Of a stretch of 64,000 bases of DNA, positions 2,071 to 61,122 are shown piece by piece (position 1 is the first letter of the stretch; every line of letters starts with the position of its first letter). The DNA is taken from positions 434,001-498,000 of the forward strand of contig JBAIAA010000245.1 in the NCBI GenBank assembly GCA_037893245.1, read 5' to 3'. The DNA is from Crossaster papposus. Its lineage: Eukaryota > Echinodermata > Asteroidea > Velatida > Solasteridae. The notes below the pieces were generated by a model that saw only the letters and a list, made by a program, of their open reading frames with translations, was not told the origin of the DNA and did no database searches. The position numbers were made by a program, and so were the translations under genes.

Positions 2071-2820
2071 GAGTGAGAATCTAATGAGGGTGAGGATCTA
2101 ATGAGGGTGAGGATCTAATGAGGGTGAGGATCTAATGAGGGTGAGGATCTAATGAGGGTGAGGATCTAATGAGGGTGAGGATCTAATGAGGGTGAGGATC
2201 TAATGAGGGTGAGGATCTAATGAGGGTGAGGATCTAATGAGGGTGAGGATCTAATGAGGGTGAGGATCTAATGAGGGTGAGGATCTAATGAGGGTGAGGA
2301 TCTAATGAGGGTGAGAATCTAATGAGGGTGAGAATCTAATGAGGGTGAGAATCTAATGAGGGTGAGGATCTAATGAGGGTGAGGATCTAATGAGGGTGAG
2401 GATCTAATGAAGGTGAGGATCTAATGAGGGTGAGGATCTAATGAGGGTGAGGATCTATTGAGGGTGAGGATCTATTGAGGGTGAGGATCTATTGAGGGTG
2501 AGGATCTAATGAGGGTGAGGATCTAATGAGGGTGAGGATCTAATGAGGGTGAGGATCTAATGAGGGTGAGGATCTAATGAGGGTGAGGATCTAATGAGGG
2601 TGAGGATCTAATGAGGGTGAGGATCTAATGAGGGTGAGAATCTAATGAGGGTGAGGATCTAATGAGGGTGAGGATCTAATGAGGGTGAGGATCTAATGAG
2701 GGTGAGGATCTAATGAGGGTGAGGATCTAATGAGGGTGAGAATCTAATGAGGGTGAGGATCTAATGAGGGTGAGGATCTAATGAGGGTGAGGATCTAATG
2801 AGGGTGAGGATCTAATGAGG
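2071..2820. repeat. 17-bp minisatellite
   Basis: About 44 head-to-tail copies of the 17-bp unit gagggtgaggatctaat, nearly perfect. A few variants occur in clusters (gagaat for gaggat, ctattg for ctaatg), which points to local expansion of variant units. The strands are strongly purine/pyrimidine asymmetric. Confidence 0.97.
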
Positions 2821-14404: not shown

Positions 14405-14805
14405 CCAACCAGGATCCTGTTGGATTAAGCAGGCAAGCCAGGATCCTGTTGGATTAAGCAGGCAAGTCATCCAACCAGGATCCTGTTGGATTTAGCAGGC
14501 AAGTCATCCAACCAGGATCCTGTTGGATTTAGCAGGCAAGTCATCCAACCAGGATCCTGTTGGATTTAGCAGGCAAGTCATCCAACCAGGATCCTGTTGG
14601 ATTTAGCAGGCAAGTCATCCAACCAGGATCCTGTTGGATTTAGCAGGCAAGTCATCCAACCAGGATCCTGTTGGATTTAGCAGGCAAGTCATCCAACCAG
14701 GATCCTGTTGGATTTAGCAGGCAAGTCATCCAACCAGGATCCTGTTAGATTAAGCAGGCAAGTCATCCAACCAGGATCCTATTGGATTAAGCAGGCAAGT
14801 CATCC
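14405..14805. repeat. 37-bp minisatellite
   Basis: About 10-11 copies of a 37-bp unit carrying 'ccaaccaggatcctgttgga' and 'agcaggcaagtcat'. The first and last copies are variant. The unit contains the palindrome caggatcctg. Confidence 0.95.
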
Positions 14806-30404: not shown

Positions 30405-33400
30405 AAGGGGATCGCCGCTGTGTGCCATTCGCCAACACACGCAGCGAATTAGTTACACGGAAATCCCTCTTTTTAAACGATTTTGTACCATCGTAGATGT
30501 CAACAAATAAATGTTTTCTTTTTATAAATCGCTAAGGATACTTTCAAAGTGTATTCTATAAGCGCCCCGAGTAAATCCATATTTAATCCGTATCAGCAAA
30601 ATCAATTTAATCCCAAGGTTCATAGTTAGGCAAAATACAGTTTTTTTGCCTCATTATTATCGAATATCCTATTTTATAATGAATTTGTACCATCGTAAAC
30701 AAGCAAAAATTCCAGTTTTCTTTAAGTGACCCCATGAAGGGAAGTCCCAGGAAGAATTTATAAGCGCCCCGACAAAATCCGTGGACTAGAAAGTCTAGCC
30801 CAACTAATTTAATCCTCGGAAGGTTATCGCCGCTGTGTGCCATTCGCCAACACACGCAGCGAATCCCTCTTTTTAAACGATTTTGTACCATCGTAGATGT
30901 AAACAAATAAATTTTTTCCTTTAATAAATTGCTAAAGATACTTCCAAAGTATATTCTATAAGCGCCCCGAGTAAATCCATATTTAATAAGTCTCGGCAAA
31001 ATCAATTTAATCCCCAGGTTCATAGTTAGGCAAAATACAATTTGTTTGCCTCATTATTATCGAATATCCTATTTTATAATGAATTTGTACCATCGTAAAC
31101 AAGCAAAAATTCCAGTTTTCTTTAAGTGACCCCATGAAGGGAAGTCCAAAGAAGAATTTATAAGTGCCCCGACAAAATCCGTGCACTAGAAAGTCTAGCC
31201 CAACTAATTTAATCCTCGGAAGGTTATCGCCGCTGTGTGCCATTCGCCAACACACGCAGCGAATTAGTTACACGGAAATCCCTCTTTTTAAACGATTTTG
31301 TACCATCGTAGATGTCAACAAATAAATGTTTTCTTTTTATAAATCGCTAAGGATACTTTCAAAGTGTATTCTATAAGCGCCCCGAGTAAATCCATATTTA
31401 ATCCGTATCAGCAAAATCAATTTAATCCCAAGGTTCATAGTTAGGCAAAATACAGTTTTTTTGCCTCATTATTATCGAATATCCTATTTTATAATGAATT
31501 TGTACCATCGTAAACAAGCAAAAATTCCAGTTTTCTTTAAGTGACCCCATGAAGGGAAGTCCCAGGAAGAATTTATAAGCGCCCCGACAAAATCAGTGCA
31601 CTAGAAAGTCTAGCCCAACTAATTTAATCCTCGGAAGGTTATCGCCGCTGTGTGCCATTCGCCAACACACGCAGCGAATTAGTTACAGTGAAATCCCTCT
31701 TTTTAAACGATTTTGTACCATCGTAGATGTAAACAAATAAATGTTTTCTTTTAATAAATTGATAAGGATACTTCCAAAGTATATTCTATAAGCGCCCCGA
31801 GTAAATCCATATTTAATAAGTCTCGGCAAAATCAATTTATCCCCAGGTTCATAGTTAGGCAAAATACAAGTTTTTTGCTTCATTATTATCGGATATCCTG
31901 TTTTATAATGAATTTGTACCATCGTAAACAAGCAAAAATTCCAGTTTTTTTTTAAGTGACCCCATGAAGGGAAGTCCAAAGAAGAATTTATAAGCGCCCC
32001 GACAAAATCCGTGGACTAGAAAGTCTAGCCCAACTAATTTAATCCTCGGAAGGTTATCGCCGCTGTGTGCCATTCGCCAACACACGCAGCGAATCCCTCT
32101 TTTTAAACGATTTTGTACCATCGTAGATGTAAACAAATAAATGTTTTCTTTTAATAAATTGATAAAGATACTTCCAAAGTATATTCTATAAGCGCCCCGA
32201 GTAAATCCATATTTAATAAGTCTCGGCAAAATCAATTTAATCCCCAGGTTCATAGTTAGGCAAAATACAGTTTTTTTTGCCTCATTATTATCGAATATCC
32301 TATTTTATAATGAATTTGTACCATCGTAAACAAGCAAAAATTCCAGTTTTTTTTAAGTGACCCCATGAAGGGAAGTCCCAGGAAGAATTTATAAGCGCCC
32401 CGACAAAATCAGTGCACTAGAAAGTCTAGCCCAACTAATTTAATCCTCGGAAGGTTATCGCCGCTGTGTGCCATTCGCCAACACACGGAGCGAATTAGTT
32501 ACAGTGAAATCCCTCTTTTTAAACGATTTTGTACCATCGTAGATGTAAAAAAAAAAGTTTTCTTTTAATAAATTGCTAAAGATACTTCCAAAGTATATTC
32601 TATAAGCGCCCCGAGTAAATCCATATTTAATCCGTATCAGCAAAATCAATTTAATCCCAAGGTTCATAGTTAGGCAAAATACAAGTTTTTTGCCTCATTA
32701 TTATCGAATATCCTATTTTATAATGAATTTGTACCATCGTAAACAAGAAAAAATTTCATTTTTTTTTAAGTGACCCCATGAAGGGGAGTCCCAGGAAGAA
32801 TTTATAAGCGCCCCGACAAAATCAGTGCACTAGAAAGTCTAGCCCAACTAATTTAATCCTCTGAAGGTTATCGCCGCTGTGTGCCATTCGCCAACACACG
32901 CAGCGAATCCCTCCTTTTAAACGATTTTGTACCATCGTAGATGTAAACAAATAAATTTTTTCTTTTAATAAATTGCTAAAGATACTTCCAAAGTATATTC
33001 TATAAGCGCCCCGAGTAAATCCATATTTAATAAGTCTCGGCAAAATCAATTTAATCCCCAGGTTCATAGTTAGGCAAAATACAATTTGTTTGCCTCATTA
33101 TTATCGAATATCCTATTTTATAATGAATTTGTACCATCGTAAACAAGCAAAAATTCCAGTTTTCTTTAAGTGACCCCATGAAGGGAAGTCCAAAGAAGAA
33201 TTTATAAGCGCCCCGACAAAATCCGTGCACTAGAAAGTCTAGCCCAACTAATTTAATCCTCGGAAGGTTATCGCCGCTGTGTGCCATTCGCCAACACACG
33301 CAGCGAATTAGTTACACGGAAATCCCTCTTTTTAAACGATTTTGTACCATCGTAGATGTAAACAAATAAATGTTTTCTTTTAATAAAATTGCTAAAGATA

Positions 33401-33648
33401 CTTCCAAAGTATATTCTATAAGCGCCCCGAGTAAATCCATATTTAATAAGTCTCGGCAAAATCAATTTAATCCCCAGGTTCATAGTTAGGCAAAATACAA
33501 GTTTTTTGACTCATTATTATCGGATATCCTGTTATTTGTACCATCGTAAACAAAAAAATATAGCAGTTTTTTTAAGTGACCCCATGACGGGAAGTCTAAA
33601 CAAGAATTAATAAGCCGCCCCGACAAAATCCGTGCACTAGAAAGTCTA
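30405..33648 (-). repeat. Left terminal array of ~400-417 bp units
   Basis: Eight copies, judged by cgccgctgtgtgcc at 30,413, 30,829, 31,228, 31,643, 32,058, 32,459, 32,872 and 33,272. Units come in two lengths, ~415 and ~400. The short form lacks about 15 bp ('tagttacacggaa'). Only the outermost unit begins aaggggatcgcc; inner ones have aaggttatcgcc. The innermost unit breaks off at 'agaaagtcta'. Recurrent 80-codon open frames in the units arise from repetition. Confidence 0.95.
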
Positions 33649-43584: not shown

Positions 43585-43628
<44 letters not shown>

Positions 43629-48163: not shown

Positions 48164-49400
48164 GTAGCGTAAAACAAAATTTGTTTTCTTCTATTTATCT
48201 GATAATTTACGAATCGTACCTATAGCATGCATGGCATAGGTGTGATCCTTTAAGAGCTAGGCTACCAAGCTAGCCCAGTGAAGTTCGCTGGGCCTAGAAG
48301 CTGCAGCTGTTTCATTGACTTAACTCCGGCTCCGTCTAAATCGTGTATTATCAGAATATTGATTGGCTGTGATGTTAATCACTAATTATGGCCAATAGAT
48401 GATCAGTAACAAAATAATTGGATCCCAGGTGTGGGAGAAGAAACATTTGTGTAATGTTAAAGAAAATGACCTAACTGACCATTCGGTGACCATTGGCCAA
48501 ATTCTGACCCCAACTGAGCATTAGTGACCATTGGCCCAATTAAAAAGAAAAAGACTGCGTAAGAAGCATGTAGTAATTATATAGAAAAATATGCCCATTG
48601 CATATCAGGTGGCCATGGCCTGCCTCACTCTTGGTTAGACTCGGTACCAAACACCGACTAGTCTAGTTACATACCCCGCGTTTCAATGTACCCAACTGTT
48701 ATCTGCGCATTCAATTGAACAGAAGTGAAAGTCAACAAATTTCATTTTATAGTGTTCATAAATTCGCAGTGTTTTCAATATGTTGTACATTGGAATGCTT
48801 TAGTCTTTTTCACAATACCCATTTATTGCCCTTGGTCGGATGGGCCCAGTCATGATTTTGTTGTTATTCTTCAACATCCAACAACGAAATAGCGCCAATT
48901 GTAGAATAGATAAGTAAGGGAAGACAACGTAAAGAAGTTAACCGTAAAAGAAAGGCATTCCTAGAATGACAGAGACATTTAATTAGCATAATAATAGTTT
49001 ATCGGTTAGACCGTGAACCAATTCAATCGTTTTACTCATATTTGCGTCAGACTAAAGAAACCTAAATTCTCTGAAATAAATAATGTTTCTACAGTTTCTG
49101 GTTTAACAAATATGTCAAAACTTAGTAATTTGGTAATGTTTTGATTGAAATTCACGTCGTGACAGTAATTGTAAACGGCGTAACAGGGAATGAAACACAT
49201 AAGCTAAACCAGTCTTGTTTTTAATTAAACGAGTAAAAATAAACATCTTTTCTTGCGTAAAATCGCATCACATTCAATAGCGAAATGGCACAGCCAAATT
49301 AATATTTAGGCCCACTTTGGTTATATGGACACAATTATACCTTGTTTAATTGTTTTTGCTATTTTTTCAGTTTCATTGTCACTTCCTTTTTTACTCTCAG

Positions 49401-51191
49401 ACAACCTCGGATGACGAAACAGCAAAACTTGATGTTGGTGGCGGCAAATCCAGGACCACTTCAGAGGAGAAATGCGACCAATTGGCTGCATTGATAGGTA
49501 ACTGTGTCACTCTCCAACAACTGGATGAAAGCACTCTGCCAAGTAACTGTTTACGTTTAATACGAACAGGTATTCGATGGATAAAAAGAGATAGAAACGG
49601 TTTGAAAAAGGTTTCCATTATGTGGACCCAAAACAGACACAATTTAAGGGGCAAAGTCCGCTCAATCATTGAAAAGCGTGAACGTGGAAAAAAAATTGCC
49701 TCTAATGTCAAAGGTACTAACGCCAAAAGAACGAAAAAACAAAAATCTGGCTCTTCTACTTCTAGTAGCATATCTGATCCGAACGCAAACTCTCAAAGTG
49801 TCCAGTCTGATTTGTACTGCATTTGTAATGAACCGTACGACCCCAACAAAAGCATGGTTGCTTGCGACCAATGTGGTGGATGGTACCATTACACGTGTAT
49901 GAATTTAAAACCCCCACGCAAAGACAAATCCTTCATGGATAAAGTAAAATTTTATTGTGGAGTAAATGATTGTAATTCTGGTAAATTTTCATTTGAACAC
50001 GTATCCGGGAGAAGCGAAACCGACAAAGCAACATACTCCGTGAGACCAAAACGGACAAAATATCGGGAAAATAAGACAAGTCGTAATCAAGAAAAAACCG
50101 ACGAAAGTGTTTCAGACCAAAATCTTAACAAACCTAAGACGAGTCGTAAAAAAAAGAAAAAAGATAAAAGTGTTTCGAACCAGAACAAACCTGACAGAAG
50201 TCCTTCAAATAGCGAAACCGATGAACATGTTTCCACTGACCAGTTTCCTAACAAATCTAAGAAAAGTCATAAAAAAGAAAAAACAGACGAAAGTGTCACC
50301 AGCCTGGACATGAACAAACCCGACAGAAGTCCTTCAAATAGCGAAACCGATGAACATGTTTCCATTGACCAGTTTCAAAACAAATCTAGAAAAAGTCATA
50401 AAAAAGAAAAAACAGACGAAAGTGTCACCAGCCTGGACATGAACAAACCCGACAGAAGTCCTTCAAATAGCGAAACCGATGAACATGTTTCCATTGACCA
50501 GTTTCAAAACAAATCTAGAAAAAGTCATAAAAAAGAAAAAACAGACGAAAGTGTCACCAGCCTGGACATGAACAAACCCGACACAAGTCCTTCAAATAGC
50601 AAAACTGATAAACATGTTTCCACTGACCAGTTTCCTAACAAATCTAAGAAAAGTCATAAAAAAGATAAAACAGACGAAAGTGTCACCAGCCTGGACATGA
50701 ACAAACCCGACACAAGTCCTTCAAATAGCAAAACTGATAAACATGTTTCCACTGACCAGTTTCCTAAAAAATCTAAGAAAAGTCATAAAAAAGATAAAAC
50801 AGACGAAAGTGTCACCAGCCTGGACATGAACAAACCCGACACAAGTCCTTCAAATAGCAAAACTGATAAACATGTTTCCACTGACCAGTTTCCTAAAAAA
50901 TCTAAGAAAAGTCATAAAAAAGATAAAACAGACGAAAGTGTCACCAGCCTGGACATGAACAAACCCGACACAAGTCCTTCAAAAGAAACCAGCGATTCTT
51001 CTCTTGTTGACGAAGACGATTTTGTATTGTTTTCCGATCATTCAAATAATATATTTGCTGATGATTCGTTTTCAGAGTCAAATGAGGGCTGGGAACCACA
51101 CGAGCAAAACTCGGACAGTAAAACATCAGAGGAAATTATCCCGGATTCAGTACTTTCCGAAATGTGTGCCGGTAACCCAAAAAAAGTTTAG
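49401..51191 (+). CDS. PHD-finger ORF with 43-residue tandem repeats
   Basis: About 596 codons from acceptor tactctcag (phase 0) to TAG. (1) An N-terminal helical region (about 49,440-49,680) of unknown family. (2) A basic nuclear-localisation-like KRTKKQK segment. (3) A PHD finger at about 49,816-49,980: YCICNEP, VACDQCGGWYHYTC and FYCGVNDC give a C4HC3 set with the aromatic before His. PHD fingers read histone H3 tails. (4) Lys/Ser/Asp-rich 43-residue repeats at about 50,170-50,985. (5) An acidic Ser-rich tail. The ORF ends seven bases before the ATG of the transposase ORF, in another frame, at an A7 run. A shortened run would fuse the two. Probably the middle part of one transposon polyprotein. 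Confidence 0.75.
   Translation, partial: TTSDDETAKLDVGGGKSRTTSEEKCDQLAALIGNCVTLQQLDESTLPSNCLRLIRTGIRWIKRDRNGLKKVSIMWTQNRHNLRGKVRSIIEKRERGKKIASNVKGTNAKRTKKQKSGSSTSSSISDPNANSQSVQSDLYCICNEPYDPNKSMVACDQCGGWYHYTCMNLKPPRKDKSFMDKVKFYCGVNDCNSGKFSFEHVSGRSETDKATYSVRPKRTKYRENKTSRNQEKTDESVSDQNLNKPKTSRKKKKKDKSVSNQNKPDRSPSNSETDEHVSTDQFPNKSKKSHKKEKTDESVTSLDMNKPDRSPSNSETDEHVSIDQFQNKSRKSHKKEKTDESVTSLDMNKPDRSPSNSETDEHVSIDQFQNKSRKSHKKEKTDESVTSLDMNKPDTSPSNSKTDKHVSTDQFPNKSKKSHKKDKTDESVTSLDMNKPDTSPSNSKTDKHVSTDQFPKKSKKSHKKDKTDESVTSLDMNKPDTSPSNSKTDKHVSTDQFPKKSKKSHKKDKTDESVTSLDMNKPDTSPSKETSDSSLVDEDDFVLFSDHSNNIFADDSFSESNEGWEPHEQNSDSKTSEEIIPDSVLSEMCAGNPKKV
50170..50985 (+). repeat. In-frame 129-bp coding tandem repeat
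   Basis: Six full copies and a partial of a 129-bp unit (43 codons). 'agtccttcaaatagc' recurs every 129 bp at about 50,198, 50,327, 50,456, 50,585, 50,714 and 50,843, with a divergent last copy at 50,972. The period is a multiple of three, so the frame is kept. Two sub-variants (SETDEH/KEKTDES, then SKTDKH/KDKTDES) lie in blocks, showing stepwise expansion. Rich in K, S, T and D, predicted disordered. Confidence 0.93.
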
Positions 51192-51198
51192 ACCTGCG

Positions 51199-54100
51199 AT
51201 GGCACCTTCATCTAAAAAGTTTCATTTCAACATAAGTAGAACAAAATGGGATAAGCTGAGAGCCCAGCAAAAAGGTCATAGTCTCCCCTTACAGTGGTCA
51301 GAAGTATTCGCTAAACCGCTGAAACGGATATATCCCTATTGTTGCATGCAATTTAGACGACATTATGTAAGTTTAATCAAACCCAAGCGAAAGTCAACAT
51401 TCAAATTTACTGCAGATGGCTATTGTAATTTTAAAGATTGTGAAATCAAATTTAAGTTAAAGATGGGTTCAGAGAAAAATCTTAAGATTAGAGTTTCAAT
51501 TACCGGCAAACAGAAACACGCAAAAAAGGAGACACGTGCACGATACATTAAGGGTGACCAGAGAATAGAGTTTAAGAAGAGGTTAAGATATAAGAAACCA
51601 AGGAGAGATTATTTAGATAATTTAAAATCATTAAGTAATAACAAATTCTTCTCTGGTTGCAGAAACGACGCACCGAGCAAATCGGTGCTGCAAAACATTT
51701 CTAGCGAATCAAAACGAATTGGCAGAAGAAAGGAAAAGAACATACAAGGCATTTTGAGGATATTAAAAAAGCAAAACACTGAAGGAGGACATTTGCCTGG
51801 AGTTGTTCGAAATTTTTCAGTTGCACCTTCAGGTCTGATGCTGTATTCCCATGACAGCGTCAAGATTTACCATTATATTTCACGACGAGATATTATTTAT
51901 TTGGATGCTACAGGATCGATAATGCAAAACCACTCTGACGTCAACACTGGGAAGAAATATCTACTTTATGATCTTGTCATTCGACATCCAAAGAAGGGAA
52001 ACCCTCCACTAGTCATTGCGTCCTTCATAACCACAAATCAAACTACTGTTAATATCTCTAACTTCCTATCCTCCTTCTTACATTCTGAAAAAACTATCTA
52101 CGGTCACAATGGAGTTCGAAGCCCACTTCTGATAATGATTGATGGAAGTTCCATGTTACTCCTAGCAGTTCTTTGGTCATTTGCGTGTGAAACAGTGCCA
52201 GATTATTTATGCCGCTGCTACCGGGTATTAAACAAACAAGCGAAAACAAATGATCTGAACAAAGTTTTTGTCCATCAATGCGCAAGTCATTTTATGAAGA
52301 ATGCGTCTAGAATGTGCCATAAACATTACCCATCGAACTTTCGAGAAGCAATGTATTGGTTTGGGTTATTAGTTAAAGCTTGCAGCTTGACCGAAATTGA
52401 CGAAGTAGTATATGCAATAGCGATTTTGACGCTCTCTGAAAAAACAACACCGCTTGTCCGGGAAAACTACAACAAGTTACAGGACAAAATTGAGACCAGA
52501 CAAATTGCCTCCGAACCCTTACTTGAATGGAAAGAAGGATGGGACGATAGTGATAATGAAGTAGACGAACACACACTCGACGTCACGCAAGATGAATTGA
52601 TCAGTCAAGCCCCCAATTCCCCGTTTAAACGACGCTTCGATCACATTGTCCAAAAAGCCATCTCTGACATTGACGCTCACGCATCATGTAATGATGACAA
52701 CACACCCGGAACCGCACGCAGTGCTTATTACGGTAAAACCTTCCTCCGCTATTTGATGAACTACGCTCTTCCAACAATTCCCAACTGGTCGGCGATATTA
52801 CTCGGGGATCTAGGTAGATACGGAGAAACAAAGCCGTACAGTGATTATTCCAGAATGTATAAGACACTACAAAACTCTAACTATCAAAATATATCTGACA
52901 ATAACCGGACACAGGGTATAATTGAGAAGAGTATGGGCGAAGTAAAGAGGGTAAAATTATTCCATGAAAGGTGTAAGAAGCTCAGCGAATTTGCAACGAT
53001 TTATAAGAGAGACTTACTGCCGCTACACAGAGAGTTTGTGGACAGTTTCTGTAAATCCTCCAAAAAAGTTAAGAAAAAGTCACTGAACCTCACTTCCGAA
53101 AAATGGTCTAAGAGAAATCGCACTTCAACTCCAAATAACAAAGGCAGATACTTTAACCCCCCAACAAAGAAAATGAAATTCAAGGAAAAAAGCGCGAAAA
53201 AGGAAAGTGTACCTATGTTCACAAACAACAACTTATTCAAACAAAATGTGAGTACCGGTAATAACAAAAGTAAAAGCCACGAGTGTAAAGGATTTACAAC
53301 TCCCACAAAGCCCAGCTCTGTTTCACATGATAAGACGAATCCAATCAAAACAAAAAGCTCAATGGTAAATCCTGACCATGAAAAAAAACAAAAAACAGGA
53401 ACTAAACCATTCCTGGGCATCGGCATTGAAAATAACCACGTTTCTTGTTGGTGGATTGCAAATCAGGCACTTAAACCATTCCTCCATGATGTTGAAACGA
53501 ATACGGCAGAAATTCCTAACATGACATCTTCAAGGAAAAACATCATTTCCATTTTTCAAACTCTTTGTGGGAAAAGTGCTTGTACCACTAAAGCAATAAA
53601 GTATGCTACTATTGCTAACACTGTGAAAGCGTGCGCGAAACAATTGAAAATGAACCACAATCGTCAACAAGATGCGTCCGAATTTTTGGCGTCCAATTTC
53701 ATACGTGATTTAATGAATGATTTGAAATTAAATGTAGAGGTTGGAATTACTCGCGATAACCAGTGCTTGCACTGCAAAAATAAGGAGTGCCTCGAAGTCT
53801 CAACTAGCTCGGTGCTGCCGATTCCAGCTGTGAAAAAAAATGTACGAGATTGTTGTTTCGAATACTTCAGGAGTGAAGTTTGTTTCGGTTTGGATTGTAT
53901 TAAATGTCAGGATGATAAAGCCATAAAGAAAACCTCTACACGAATATATTTAGTGCCAGATATATTATTTATTCAAGTGTTGCGGTTCAAAATACAAAAC
54001 CAAAAGGCAGTAAAAGTTACAAACAAAATCCATGTCGATAAGAATTTGGAATTGACTAATTACCTTTCAGACCCGAGTATACGAGCTATATATTCTCTCG

Positions 54101-55365
54101 TGTCTGTCGTAGCACATTTTGGCGATAGCGTGGAAAGCGGACACTACGTCACATTTGTAATTGACAGTAAAAACAATAAGATCTTACAATATAACGATAA
54201 ACGTGTACATGAGGTTAGTCAACAACGATTTAGTCAGTTGGTAGATCATTGTGGATATCTATTAATGTATAGAAAGATCACGGCTGCTGACTGTACAGTC
54301 TTAACAGATCATAGTAGTGAAAGTGAAGACAGTGAAAATAGTAGTAGCGGTTACGAATACCCAACGAGGCCCGAAGTAGCAGACCTTATTGCAGATGATT
54401 CGGTTTCTGAATTTTCGGATGCTGACAGTACGTCAAATGACCAGGTAAAGATCGATCACAACTACTCGTCCAACAAACAAAGTAAATATGTGCCGAAATA
54501 TTGGGGCGGCAATTTCAGTACAGACCCATCCACGTTTTTTAAATTAAGTGCAAACGAAGAACGGTTTGTGAGAGATCTGTGGGGGTTTATTGACGGAAGC
54601 GTTATCGACTCTGTGGCAATTGAGTCCAAAACAAGCAAGGATTTTTTAACTTTTCTTCATTTAGCTTATTTAAATCCACATCAGACCGACGCGGTTTTGA
54701 AGTGTATTCGAAAATCCAACCCGGGCTATAATAAGGGATGGGTAAGTAACTTCTTCGTAGACTTTTACTTGGAGCAACTTTCATCAAGTAATTTAACTGT
54801 TACATCATGTGGTGCTTTGCGATGTTCTGAAACGAACGAAATAATTAACCGAAAAGTTAAGAAAGCCACTTTTGCTGGAGTGAAAAAAACATGCTGTGTT
54901 TTAGGCGACCTACCAAACCTGATTCTTTGTCCGTTGCTAGCAGATGGACATTTTAATCTGTTTGTAATCGACCAAAATAGGTCAAGCATATTTGTCTACG
55001 ATTCTTTAAGTTTAGACACTTCGCATTCTGACAAACTTAGAAAATATATGCCAAGGTATTCAGAATCTTTCCGCCTTTTTTTCTTAAAAGGTGTACAACT
55101 AAAGCACTGGCTTTGTGTCCCTAAAGTACCACAAATAACTGACGAATTTCCTATCGATATCCTACCAGTCGCTCAGCAAAATGATTCAGCAACTTGTGGG
55201 ATATATTTATGCTTGTTTGCTGAACAGGTCGCTTTTGAGCAACTTGGCGTGCGAGATAATGACACGAGTGTAGATTTGCGACTGTATACTGCTATGAATG
55301 TTGTGAGAAGAGCCAAATTCGTGGATGTTAGATTACAGCAACTGTATCAACACGTGTTCAAATAA
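51199..55365 (+). CDS. DDE-like transposase + USP + Ulp1 multidomain protein
   Basis: 1,388 codons from ATG 51,199 (the frame is open upstream to 51,004, overlapping the PHD ORF). Residues count from that ATG. N-terminal Cys/His-containing basic region. Transposase domain about 225-620: D236 in YLDATGS, D315 in MIDGS, a Cys-x2-His at 361-364 (HQCASHFMK) and acidic candidates E399-E414, an order seen in MULE/NOF-type DDE enzymes; then NNRTQGIIEKSMGEVKR. USP domain about 740-1,005: Cys box GIENNHVSCWW (C750), NRQQDASEFL, two Cys pairs, His box SGHYVTF (H982) and YNDKRV. Ulp1/C48 domain about 1,165-1,388: GHFNLFVID (H1251), YDSL (D1268), Q1326 and C1333 in QQNDSATCGIY. All expected catalytic residues of both proteases are present, so they may be active. 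An AATAAA overlaps the stop. Confidence 0.8.
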   Translation: MAPSSKKFHFNISRTKWDKLRAQQKGHSLPLQWSEVFAKPLKRIYPYCCMQFRRHYVSLIKPKRKSTFKFTADGYCNFKDCEIKFKLKMGSEKNLKIRVSITGKQKHAKKETRARYIKGDQRIEFKKRLRYKKPRRDYLDNLKSLSNNKFFSGCRNDAPSKSVLQNISSESKRIGRRKEKNIQGILRILKKQNTEGGHLPGVVRNFSVAPSGLMLYSHDSVKIYHYISRRDIIYLDATGSIMQNHSDVNTGKKYLLYDLVIRHPKKGNPPLVIASFITTNQTTVNISNFLSSFLHSEKTIYGHNGVRSPLLIMIDGSSMLLLAVLWSFACETVPDYLCRCYRVLNKQAKTNDLNKVFVHQCASHFMKNASRMCHKHYPSNFREAMYWFGLLVKACSLTEIDEVVYAIAILTLSEKTTPLVRENYNKLQDKIETRQIASEPLLEWKEGWDDSDNEVDEHTLDVTQDELISQAPNSPFKRRFDHIVQKAISDIDAHASCNDDNTPGTARSAYYGKTFLRYLMNYALPTIPNWSAILLGDLGRYGETKPYSDYSRMYKTLQNSNYQNISDNNRTQGIIEKSMGEVKRVKLFHERCKKLSEFATIYKRDLLPLHREFVDSFCKSSKKVKKKSLNLTSEKWSKRNRTSTPNNKGRYFNPPTKKMKFKEKSAKKESVPMFTNNNLFKQNVSTGNNKSKSHECKGFTTPTKPSSVSHDKTNPIKTKSSMVNPDHEKKQKTGTKPFLGIGIENNHVSCWWIANQALKPFLHDVETNTAEIPNMTSSRKNIISIFQTLCGKSACTTKAIKYATIANTVKACAKQLKMNHNRQQDASEFLASNFIRDLMNDLKLNVEVGITRDNQCLHCKNKECLEVSTSSVLPIPAVKKNVRDCCFEYFRSEVCFGLDCIKCQDDKAIKKTSTRIYLVPDILFIQVLRFKIQNQKAVKVTNKIHVDKNLELTNYLSDPSIRAIYSLVSVVAHFGDSVESGHYVTFVIDSKNNKILQYNDKRVHEVSQQRFSQLVDHCGYLLMYRKITAADCTVLTDHSSESEDSENSSSGYEYPTRPEVADLIADDSVSEFSDADSTSNDQVKIDHNYSSNKQSKYVPKYWGGNFSTDPSTFFKLSANEERFVRDLWGFIDGSVIDSVAIESKTSKDFLTFLHLAYLNPHQTDAVLKCIRKSNPGYNKGWVSNFFVDFYLEQLSSSNLTVTSCGALRCSETNEIINRKVKKATFAGVKKTCCVLGDLPNLILCPLLADGHFNLFVIDQNRSSIFVYDSLSLDTSHSDKLRKYMPRYSESFRLFFLKGVQLKHWLCVPKVPQITDEFPIDILPVAQQNDSATCGIYLCLFAEQVAFEQLGVRDNDTSVDLRLYTAMNVVRRAKFVDVRLQQLYQHVFK

Positions 55366-56689: not shown

Positions 56690-59600
56690 TAAATTATTTG
56701 GGCTTTCCAGTTCATGGATTATCCCTGAACGCAAACAAATTGTATTTTGCCTAACCATGAACCTTGGGATTAAATTGATTTTGCAGACTTATTAAATATG
56801 GATTTACTCGGGGCGCTTATAGAATATACTTTGGAAGTATCTTTAGCAATTTATTAAAAGAAAACTTTTTTTGTTTACATCTACGATGGTACAAAATCGT
56901 TTAAAAAGAGGGATTTCCGTGTAACTAATTCGCTGCGTGTGTTGGCGAATGGCACACAGCGGCGATCCCCTTCCGAGGATTCAGTTAGTTGGGCTAGACT
57001 TTCTAGTCCACGGATTTTGTCGGGGCGCTTATAAATTCTTCTTTGGACTTTCCTTCATGGGGTCACTTAAAAAAAACTGGAATATTTTCTTGTTTACGAT
57101 GGTACAAATTCATTATAAAACAGGATATCCGATAATAATGAGGCAAAAAACTTGTATTTTGCCTAACTATGAACCTGGGGATTAAATTGATTTTGCCGAG
57201 ACTTATTAAATATGGATTTACTCGGGGCGCTTATAGAATATACTTTGGAAGTATCTTTATCACTTTATTAAAAGAAAACATTAATTTTTTTACATCTACG
57301 ATGGTACAAAATCGTTTAAAAAGAGGGATTTCCGTGTAACTAATTCGCTGCGTGTGTTGGCGAATGGCACACAGCGGCGATCCCCTTCCGAGGATTCAGT
57401 TAGTTGGGCTAGACTTTCTAGTCCACGGATTTTGTCGGGGCGCTTATAAATTCTTCTTTGGACTTTCCGTCATGGGGTCACTTTAAAAAAAAGGACATTT
57501 TTGCTTGTTTACGATGGTACAAATTCATTATAAAATAGGATATTCGATAATAATGAGGCAAAACAATTGTATTTTGCCTAACTATGAACCTGGGGATTAA
57601 ATTGATTTTGCCGAGACTTATTAAATATGGATTTACTCGGGGCGCTTATAGAATATACTTTGGAAGTATCTTTATCAATTTATTAAAAGAAAACATTTAT
57701 TTGTTTACATCTACGATGGTACAAAATCGTTTGAAAAGAGGGATTTCCGTGTAACTAATTCGCTCCGTGTGTTGGCGAATGGCACACAGCGGCGATAACC
57801 TTCCGAGGATTAAATTAGTTGGGCTAGACTTTCTAGTCCACGGATTTTGTCGGGGCGCTTATAAATTCTTTCTTGGACTTCCCTTCATGGGGTCACTTAA
57901 AGAAAACTGGAATGTTTGCTTGTTTACGATGGTACAAATTCATTATAAAATAGGATATTCGATAATAATGAGGCAAAAAAACTGTATTTTGCCTAACTAT
58001 GAACCTTGGGATTAAATTGATTTTGCTGATACGGATTAAATATGGATTTACTCGGGGCGCTTATAGAATATACTTTGGAAGTATCTTTAGCAATTTATTA
58101 AAAGAAAACATTTATTTGTTTACATCTACGATGGTACAAAATCGTTTAAAAAGAGGGATTTCACTGTAACTAATTCGCTGCGTGTGTTGGCGAATGGCAC
58201 ACAGCGGCGATAACCTTCCGAGGATTAAATTAGTTGGGCTAGACTTTCTAGTGCACTGATTTTGTCGGGGCGCTTATAAATTCTTCCTGGGACTCCCCTT
58301 CATGGGGTCACTTTAAAAAAAATGAAATTTTTTCTTGTTTACGATGGTACAAATTCATTATAAAATAGGATATTCGATAATAATGAGGCAAAAAACTTGT
58401 ATTTTGCCTAACTATGAACCTGGGGATTAAATTGATTTTGCCGAGACTTATTAAATATGGATTTACTCGGGGCGCTTATAGAATATACTTTGGAAGTATC
58501 TTTAGCAATTTATTAAAAGAAAACTTTTTTTTTTTTACATCTACGATGGTACAAAATCGTTTAAAAAGAGGGATTTCACTGTAACTAATTCGCTCCGTGT
58601 GTTGGCGAATGGCACACAGCGGCGATAACCTTCCGAGGATTAAATTAGTTGGGCTAGACTTTCTAGTGCACTGATTTTGTCGGGGCGCTTATAAATTCTT
58701 CCTGGGACTCCCCTTCATGGGGGTCACTTAAAAAAAACTGGATTTTTGCTTGTTTACGATGGTACAAATTCATTATAAAACAGGATATCCGATAATAATG
58801 AGGCAAAAAACTTGTATTTTGCCTAACTATGAACCTGGGGATTAAATTGATTTTGCCGAGACTTATTAAATATGGATTTACTCGGGGCGCTTATAGAATA
58901 TACTTTGGAAGTATCTTTATCAATTTATTAAAAGAAAACATTAATTTGTTTACATCTACGATGGTACAAAATCGTTTGAAAAGAGGGATTTCCGTGTAAC
59001 TAATTCGCTCCGTGTGTTGGCGAATGGCACACAGCGGCGATAACCTTCCGAGGATTAAATTAGTTGGGCTAGACTTTCTAGTCCACGGATTTTGTCGGGG
59101 CGCTTATAAATTCTTCTTTGGACTTCCCTTCATGGGGTCACTTAAAGAAAACTGGAATTTTTGCTTGTTTACGATGGTACAAATTCATTATAAAATATGA
59201 TATTCGATAATAATGAGGCAAAAAAACTGTATTTTGCCTATAACTATGAACCTTGGGATTAAATTGATTTTGCTGATACGGATTAAATATGGATTTACTC
59301 GGGGCGCTTATAGAATATACTTTGGAAGTATCTTTATCAATTTATTAAAAGAAAACATTTATTTGTTTACATCTACGATGGTACAAAATCGTTTTAAAAG
59401 AGGGATTTCCGTGTAACTAATTCGCTGCGTGTGTTGGCGAATGGCACACAGCGGCGATCCCCTTCCGAGGATTCAGTTAGTTGGGCTAGACTTTCTAGTT
59501 CACGGATTTTATCGGGGCGCTTATAAATTCTTCTTTGGACTTTCCTTCATGGGGTCACTTAAAAAAAACTGGAATATTTTCTTGTTTACGATGGTACAAA

Positions 59601-61122
59601 TTCATTATAAAACAGGATATCCGATAATAATGAGGCAAACAAATTGTATTTTGCCTAACTATGAACCTTGGGATTAAATTGATTTTGCCGAGACTTATTA
59701 AATATGGATTTACTCGGGGCGCTTATAGAATATACTTTGGAAGTATCTTTATCAATTTATTAAAAGAAAACATTAATTTTTTTACATCTACGATGGTACA
59801 AAATCGTTTAAAAAGAGGGATTTCCGTGTAACTAATTCGCTACGTGTGTTGGCGAATGGCACACAGCGGCGATCCCCTTCCGAGGATTCAGTTAGTTGGG
59901 CTAGACTTTCTAGTTCACGGATTTTGTCGGGGCGCTTATAAATTCTTCTTTGGACTTTCCGTCATGGGGTCACTTAAAAAAAACTGGAATATTTTCTTGT
60001 TTACGATGGTACAAATTCATTATAAAACAGGATATCCGATAATAATGAGGCAAAAAACTTGTATTTTGCCTAACTATGAACCTGGGGATTAAATTGATTT
60101 TGCAGAGACTTATTAAATATGGATTTACTCGGGGCGCTTATAGAATACACTTTGAAAGTATCTTTAGCGATTTATAAAAAGAAAACATTTATTTGTTGAC
60201 ATCTACGATGGTACAAAATCGTTTTAAAAGAGGGATTTCCGTGTAACTAATTCGCTGCGTGTGTTGGCGAATGGCACACAGCGGCGATCCCCTTCCGAGG
60301 ATTAAATTAGTTAGACTAGACTTTATAGTGCACGGATTTTGTCGGGGCGCTTATAAATTCTTCTTTGGACTTCCCTTCATGGGGTCACCTTTAAAAAAAT
60401 GAAATGTTTGCTTGTTTACGATGGTACAAATTCATTTTAAAACAGAAAATCCGATAATAATGAGGCCAAAAACTTGTATTTTGCCTAACTATGAACCTGG
60501 GGATTAAATTGATTTTGCCGAGACTTATTAAATATGGATTTACTCGGGGCGCTTATAGAATATACTTTGGAAGTATCTTTATCAATTTATTAAAAGAAAA
60601 CATTAATTTTTTTACATCTACGATGGTACAAAATCGTTTAAAAAGAGGGATTTCCGTGTAACTAATTCGCTGCGTGTGTTGGCGAATGGCACACAGCGGC
60701 GATCCCCTTCCGAGGATTCAGTTAGTTGGGCTAGACTTTCTAGTTCACGGATTTTGTCGGGGCGCTTATAAATTCTTCTTTGGACTTTCCGTCATGGGGT
60801 CACTTAAACAAAACTGGAATATTTTCTTGTTTACGATGGTACAAATTCATTATAAAACAGGATATCCGATAATAATGAGGCAAAAAACTTGTATTTTGCC
60901 TAACTATGAACCTGGGGATTAAATTGATTTTGCAGACTTATTAAATATGGATTTACTCGGGGCGCTTATAGAATACACTTTGAAAGTATCTTTAGCGATT
61001 TATAAAAAGAAAACATTTATTTGTTGACATCTACGATGGTACAAAATCGTTTTAAAAGAGGGATTTCCGTGTAACTAATTCGCTGGGTGTGTTGGCGAAT
61101 GGCACACAGCGGCGATCCCCTT
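56690..61122 (+). repeat. Right terminal array of ~415 bp units
   Basis: About 11 copies of the left-array unit in inverted orientation, spaced about 415 bp (ggcacacagcggcgat near 56,951 through 61,101). The innermost unit is decayed over its first ~60 bp. Two sub-types alternate: 'gataaccttccgaggattaa' and 'gatccccttccgaggattca'. The array ends at 'gatcccctt', the complement of the left terminus. Recurrent 82-codon frames are repeat artefacts. Confidence 0.95.

Follow-up and report, generated by a model that had tools for sequence, protein, structure and literature searches.

A transposase with USP- and Ulp1-type protease domains in a probable Rehavkus/NOF-like transposon of Crossaster papposus

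An open reading frame (ORF2) in the genome of Crossaster papposus encodes a single transposase protein that carries both a ubiquitin-protease (USP) domain and a SUMO-protease (Ulp1) domain, a combination backed by sequence, by the modelled fold of the transposase core and the USP, and by its recurrence in distant homologues. The frame lies in a 64,000-nt stretch of contig JBAIAA010000245.1 (hereafter the window, to which all coordinates refer) and is the one named in a first-pass annotation that had been made from the sequence alone. Together with a shorter frame upstream (ORF1) it forms a coding unit in which a PHD finger, a WRKY-like domain, a DDE transposase, a USP and an Ulp1 domain follow one another in that order. 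This unit is probably the gene of a large DNA transposon of the Mutator superfamily, foldback-type and Rehavkus/NOF-like, residing in an animal genome, and we infer a mechanism for it below. The label is used because the PHD finger and the inverted satellite arms that accompany the unit match published features of Rehavkus, and full membership of Rehavkus is not claimed. Four features go beyond the first-pass annotation of this frame: the WRKY-like domain, the PHD finger, the arms and a break in frame between ORF1 and ORF2. The possibility that the domains belong to separate genes, or that the frame is open by chance, was rejected because it runs for 1468 codons (a chance of about 2e-37 at the window's stop frequency) and because divergent homologues share the domain order.

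The two protease domains

Both protease domains are recognised independently of one another, and the catalytic residues of each are present. The Cys box and His box that the first-pass annotation had ascribed to a USP turned out to be C750 and H982 of a domain that matches Pfam UCH above its cut-off (ORF2 aa 762-1024, 5.6e-26), and the model of this region has a predicted USP fold with a Cys-His-Asn/Asp triad and zinc-finger cysteines at 856/859/900/903. In a 14-row alignment (A4), C750 is kept in 14/14 and H982 in 13/13 of the rows with a letter at that position; removal of ubiquitin is the putative activity of the domain. No conclusion was drawn as to a single origin of the family's USPs, as the USP tree is weak and the placing of 16 family USPs in one clade against three others was not rejected (p-AU 0.30).

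The His-Asp-Gln-Cys set assigned in the same annotation to peptidase family C48 was likewise borne out, the four residues belonging to a domain that matches Pfam Peptidase_C48 above cut-off (ORF2 aa 1241-1349, 1.2e-6). Profile comparison places this domain nearest SENP1/2 and Ulp1 (SENP1 4e-28, Ulp1 8.2e-21) and far from SENP8 (2.6e-4), a ranking that is only suggestive of SUMO, rather than ubiquitin or NEDD8, as the substrate. A hidden Markov model (HMM) of the family's C48 domains also matches the window protein, whose sequence was in its training set. Within A4 the active site is kept throughout (H 12/12, D 11/11, Q 10/10, C 10/10), and, as judged from such alignments, the enzymatic parts keep their predicted active-site residues in distant relatives.

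The transposase core

Because no Pfam transposase model matches the ORF2 protein, the claim that it contains a DDE-like core with a Cys-x2-His motif rested on motif reading until structures were compared. That comparison agrees with the claim: the modelled core is RNase H-like with a helical insert, as in Mutator/MULE (IS256-like) transposases, and the D-D-E triad is accompanied by a C/H motif between the second D and the E, which is a feature of Mutator/MULE transposases. Among rows with a residue in a second alignment (A3), D315 is kept in 29/29 and E576 in 25/26. The core is nearest to the transposase ISCth4, which we take to be of IS256 type, and IS256 is akin to Mutator.

ORF1, the PHD finger and the frame break

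ORF1 and ORF2 are read as one protein because a homologue of 1937 aa (P0005) aligns by tblastn across both, with aa 36-455 on ORF1 (frame 3, E 2.8e-24) and aa 468-1472 on ORF2 (frame 1); P0005 itself holds a PHD finger and a transposase within one protein. Comparison with PDB chains places the PHD finger of ORF1 nearest those of BPTF (5.5e-9), Spp1 (2e-8), PHF2, PHF8 and DIDO1, all of which are readers of H3K4me3. A 43-aa repeat sits between the PHD finger and the transposase, where P0005 has, by eye, a different repeat; the near-identical 129-bp minisatellite copies suggest a recent expansion of a lysine-rich linker. One or more earlier exons may lie upstream of ORF1, and none was found in the window.

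The frames of ORF1 and ORF2 diverge at a tract of seven A residues. A programmed frameshift at this tract was considered; since the flanking region is a single frame in P0002 and P0005, however, mutation or assembly error is the simplest account of the break.

Recurrence among homologues

The trio of transposase, USP and C48 recurs among divergent homologues, which were drawn from database searches as a set of 41 proteins, part of them scored only among candidates sharing most words. When 17 of these were scanned individually with Pfam, UCH was found in 15 and C48 in 9, and both stood above cut-off in nine proteins (P0004-P0007, P0016-P0019 and P0021). If partial C48 domains (P0003, P0015, P0020) and the reversed arrangement of P0008 are included, USP and C48 occur together in 13 of the 41; many others are fragments, and P0012-P0014 match the window via the USP only. 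With E up to 10, the 30 rows of A3 gave UCH in 15 and C48 in 11. The family C48 model, which was tested on 42 proteins including the 10 of its training set, adds partial domains in P0003, P0015, P0020 and P0040 and has matches in P0008 and P0011.

In a tree of the DDE core (24 rows), several long branches of which leave the deep joins unsure, the window joins P0003 (100/98), then P0002 (100/100) and then P0008 (100/100), the last in spite of a reversed order in which C48 (1193-1348) precedes the USP (1395-1670). USP and C48 are also found together in a 13-row group around P0007/P0016 (100/100) and in P0004-P0006 (80/82 with P0010). P0011, in which no USP was called, combines a DDE core with an OTU-like region at its N-terminus and with a C48 domain. 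The N-terminal region has a weak similarity to chains named viral RNA polymerase L (E 0.001), which we take to be OTU domains, with Phe at the catalytic position that is Cys in the aligned chain; P0011 is another ubiquitin/SUMO pairing among the relatives.

The named hosts are Pinctada imbricata and the octocorals Xenia, Dendronephthya gigantea and Paramuricea clavata. The proteins of these three octocorals are 50-58% identical to P0007, with no C48 call in them, and P0039 (Paramuricea clavata), which has a USP domain, bears the NCBI name NOF-FB transposable element protein. Further domains vary: an HMG box precedes the USP in five homologues (P0016, P0019, P0020, P0021, P0035), weak Ig-like C-terminal matches fall below the Pfam cut-off in P0007, P0017 and P0018, and two N-terminal BAG stretches occur in P0004 (Pinctada). 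P0013, a Helitron-type protein by its precomputed Pfam matches (PF14214, PF05970), has a USP near its C-terminus, and this USP adjoins the P0007/P0016 transposase-USP group in the USP tree with moderate support (86/91). One scan of viral contigs with a third alignment (A1) turned up 11 pattern matches, and no relative was confirmed among them.

The satellite arms and the limits of the element

Two satellite arms flank the coding unit (Table 1), and they are inverted with respect to each other and 91-94% identical, depending on register. Both terminate outward at the same 22 bases, which are exact at each outer edge; among inner units, the seven of the left arm differ from this 22-mer by two bases and 6/10 of those of the right arm carry it exactly. 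Between 33650 and 49350, no other gene of the element was found in ORF lists, in repeats or by tblastn with the 42 proteins only. Non-coding RNAs at gathering threshold, and tRNAs by ARAGORN, were likewise absent from the window.

Table 1. Features of the window (repeat copies from Tandem Repeats Finder, TRF, where stated)
Feature	Position	Strand	Details
Left inverted satellite arm	30405..33648	+	7.9 copies of a ~400-415-bp unit (TRF); outer edge begins AAGGGGATCGCCGCTGTGTGCC
ORF1	49350..51191	+	613 aa, stop-to-stop; N-terminal part of same protein as ORF2
PHD finger	49818..49958	+	ORF1 aa 157-203; Pfam PHD 3.6e-7
Lysine-rich in-frame tandem repeat	50183..50983	+	129 bp (43 aa), 6.2 copies, 97% matches (TRF)
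A7 tract	51179..51185	+	ORF1 and ORF2 frames diverge by one base; ORF1 stop at 51189-51191
ORF2	51199..55365	+	1388 aa; transposase, USP and Ulp1; frame open from 50959
WRKY-like zinc DNA-binding domain	51211..51528	+	ORF2 aa 5-110
DDE transposase core with helical insert	51784..53046	+	ORF2 aa ~196-616; D236, D315, C361-x2-H364, E576
USP (C19) deubiquitinase domain	53404..54309	+	ORF2 aa 736-1037; N745, C750, H982, N999/D1000
Ulp1/SENP (C48) protease domain	54715..55317	+	ORF2 aa 1173-1373; H1251, D1268, Q1327, C1333
Right inverted satellite arm	56731..61122	-	10.6 copies of a 415-bp unit, that of the left arm in opposite orientation
G-rich 17-bp tandem repeat	2073-2820		44 copies, 98% matches (TRF)
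37-bp repeat	14438-14805		9.9 copies, 98%
Run of 41 G	43588-43628
Direct long-repeat pair near window start	7185-7782/8658-9259		93.5%
Direct long-repeat pair near window start	1154-1888/9524-10265		87.8%

Several observations weigh against the reading of this locus as a Mutator-like transposon armed with two proteases. Some 16 kb separate the left arm from ORF1, the right arm starts 1.4 kb past the stop codon of ORF2, and because of these unequal distances the two may come from different insertions. No 9-bp target-site duplication was found at the arm edges, where the best agreement was 5/9; as 5 or 6 of 9 was also reached in 386 of 500 placements made at random, the edges do no better than chance positions. 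The one-base offset between ORF1 and ORF2 means that the copy in the window may be inactive, dead or mis-assembled. Among the Pfam models that the first-pass annotation had put forward, UCH and Peptidase_C48 were recovered above cut-off and MULE was not: it is unmatched at E 1, or with E up to 10 over aa 1-690, and is absent among the matches listed for the 30 rows of A3 (25/42 families). The USP is less conserved between the window and P0003 than the DDE core (32% vs 56%), and its position 999 is variable (N 1, D 11, S 1). The C48 part was modelled at modest predicted local distance difference test (pLDDT) values with a fold-match list filled by USPs, and no Ulp1/SENP chain is among the 50 fold matches listed for a second model, which tests little, as USPs fill that list too. 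Finally, the Gln column of the C48 domain holds Asn in P0011 in a seven-row alignment.

A proposed mechanism and its alternatives

In the mechanism that we propose, the WRKY-like domain would bind repeat sequences of the satellite arms, cutting and joining of DNA would fall to the DDE core, and the PHD finger would read nucleosomes that carry H3K4 methylation, in target or donor chromatin. Tethered to the transpososome, the USP and Ulp1 domains would strip ubiquitin and SUMO locally, be it from the transposase itself, from chromatin, or from silencing or repair proteins. Such deconjugation would keep SUMO-targeted ubiquitin ligation and the proteasome from acting on the complex, and would counter SUMO-dependent silencing. 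SUMO-dependent heterochromatin is one of the means by which animals silence transposons, and to our knowledge few direct counter-measures to it are known among transposons. Two different deconjugating enzymes are kept, whichever of them comes first, and this suggests that each modifier is of importance. Protection of the transposase or the countering of SUMO-dependent silencing is a plausible role, which gains some weight from the VANC/Kaonashi proteins of plants (PMC13317346; this and the other literature cited is represented here by excerpts, except where main texts are named) and from the PHD finger present here.

A wider proposal, which we advance tentatively and as possible rather than probable, is that of a deep animal transposon lineage in which one polypeptide unites a transposase with an H3K4-methyl reader and with both a deubiquitinase and a deSUMOylase, and would strip both modifiers in cis, disabling SUMO-dependent silencing as well as ubiquitin-dependent removal of the transpososome. 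Because modules have been swapped (the order in P0008, the decayed OTU-like region with Ulp1 in P0011, and the HMG box, BAG and Ig-like additions), ubiquitin/SUMO control might then be a general front in the arms race of DNA transposons.

Alternatively, the chief targets of the proteases might be DNA-repair factors of the host, once excision or integration has taken place, rather than silencing or transposase stability. The USP model is about equally similar to many USPs, and these include USP1 and USP12/46, which are linked to DNA repair. Bao and colleagues proposed the repair-factor idea for Ulp1 and OTU in Ginger1 (PMC2836005), but for the present protein it would leave the adjacent PHD finger unexplained, and we regard it as rather unlikely.

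A domesticated, transposon-derived host gene that is no longer mobile, with the satellite arms as unrelated neighbours, would agree with the long open frame that has been retained, with the asymmetric arms and their edges devoid of a target-site duplication, and with a homologue from Pinctada whose database entry, on a contig of 67.9 Mb, calls it a hypothetical protein. Yet the homologues have diverged and are modular, their extra domains vary and one of them has a swapped order, which is more like mobile elements; one of them is named NOF-FB, the arms have a common outer unit edge, and the frame break would hit the gene, all of which makes domestication highly improbable. A passenger status for the protease domains, as host sequence that was captured and is unneeded for mobility, seems just as doubtful, for although MULEs have a tendency to pick up pieces of host genes (PMC6446971) and no other USP of the tree exceeds 32% identity to that of the window (vs 56% for the DDE core), the active-site and zinc residues are retained among divergent rows and the DDE tree has several groups in which both proteases are kept, which neutral carriage hardly explains.

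If the proteases do serve the transposon in the way proposed, an unusual domain combination kept by distant relatives hints at an element that disarms host chromatin control while moving. A transposase with deSUMOylase-type and deubiquitinase-type domains, kept in divergent relatives, would also make the proposed role of ubiquitin and SUMO in transposition (PMC2836005) directly testable.

Comparison with known systems

The likeness to Rehavkus rests on published descriptions, not on sequence comparison. These MULE-related elements, reported in Arthropoda and Annelida, combine the transposase with a PHD finger and have a mini-satellite ahead of the 3' terminal inverted repeat (TIR), TIRs of 26-400 bp and 9-bp duplications (PMC6446971), and Rehavkus-1_TC of Tribolium has satellite arrays in its inverted termini (PMC10218199). 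The element in the window likewise has a PHD finger, a mini-satellite after the gene and inverted satellite arrays; it differs in its two proteases and in arms of 3.2 and 4.4 kb, and no duplication was found at the arm edges. The words 'ulp1', 'ubiquitin' and 'protease' have 0 occurrences in the main texts of PMC6446971 and PMC13359780. NOF-FB (foldback) is brought in by the name of the USP-bearing homologue P0039 and by the foldback-like arms.

Kaonashi/KIU-VANC of the Arabidopsis Vandal MULEs resembles the present system in having Ulp1 on a MULE-encoded protein, but this is an accessory protein of VANC type in a plant lineage, with no USP mentioned in the excerpts; Ulp1-carrying VANC genes are described there, and VANC proteins lower the methylation of related elements (PMC13317346). 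In Ginger1, a transposase of integrase type, by contrast, carries a C-terminal Ulp1 or OTU, one family having Ulp1 and a PHD finger, and no family tabulated in the excerpts has more than one protease or a USP (PMC2836005). According to the same source, Ulp1 is also present in plant, hydra and lancelet Mutator elements, and the ubiquitin pathway is proposed as a possible participant in transposition; the source further gives a Trichomonas vaginalis protein, XP_001314237.1, with transposase_11 and Peptidase C19. This last protein also joins a transposase to a ubiquitin-hydrolase domain, but its transposase is of another family and no SUMO protease is mentioned for it in the excerpts. C48 peptidases have also been found in Cryptons (PMC3212892).

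The combination was not known to the first-pass annotation, and the full-text literature is in keeping with this: among the matches listed, as far as their excerpts go, no description of USP and Ulp1 in one transposase was recognised, with Repbase and most subscription papers outside the search. Ulp1, OTU and C19 have thus each been reported separately in transposons, and the joint presence of USP and Ulp1 in one transposase is consistent with being new.

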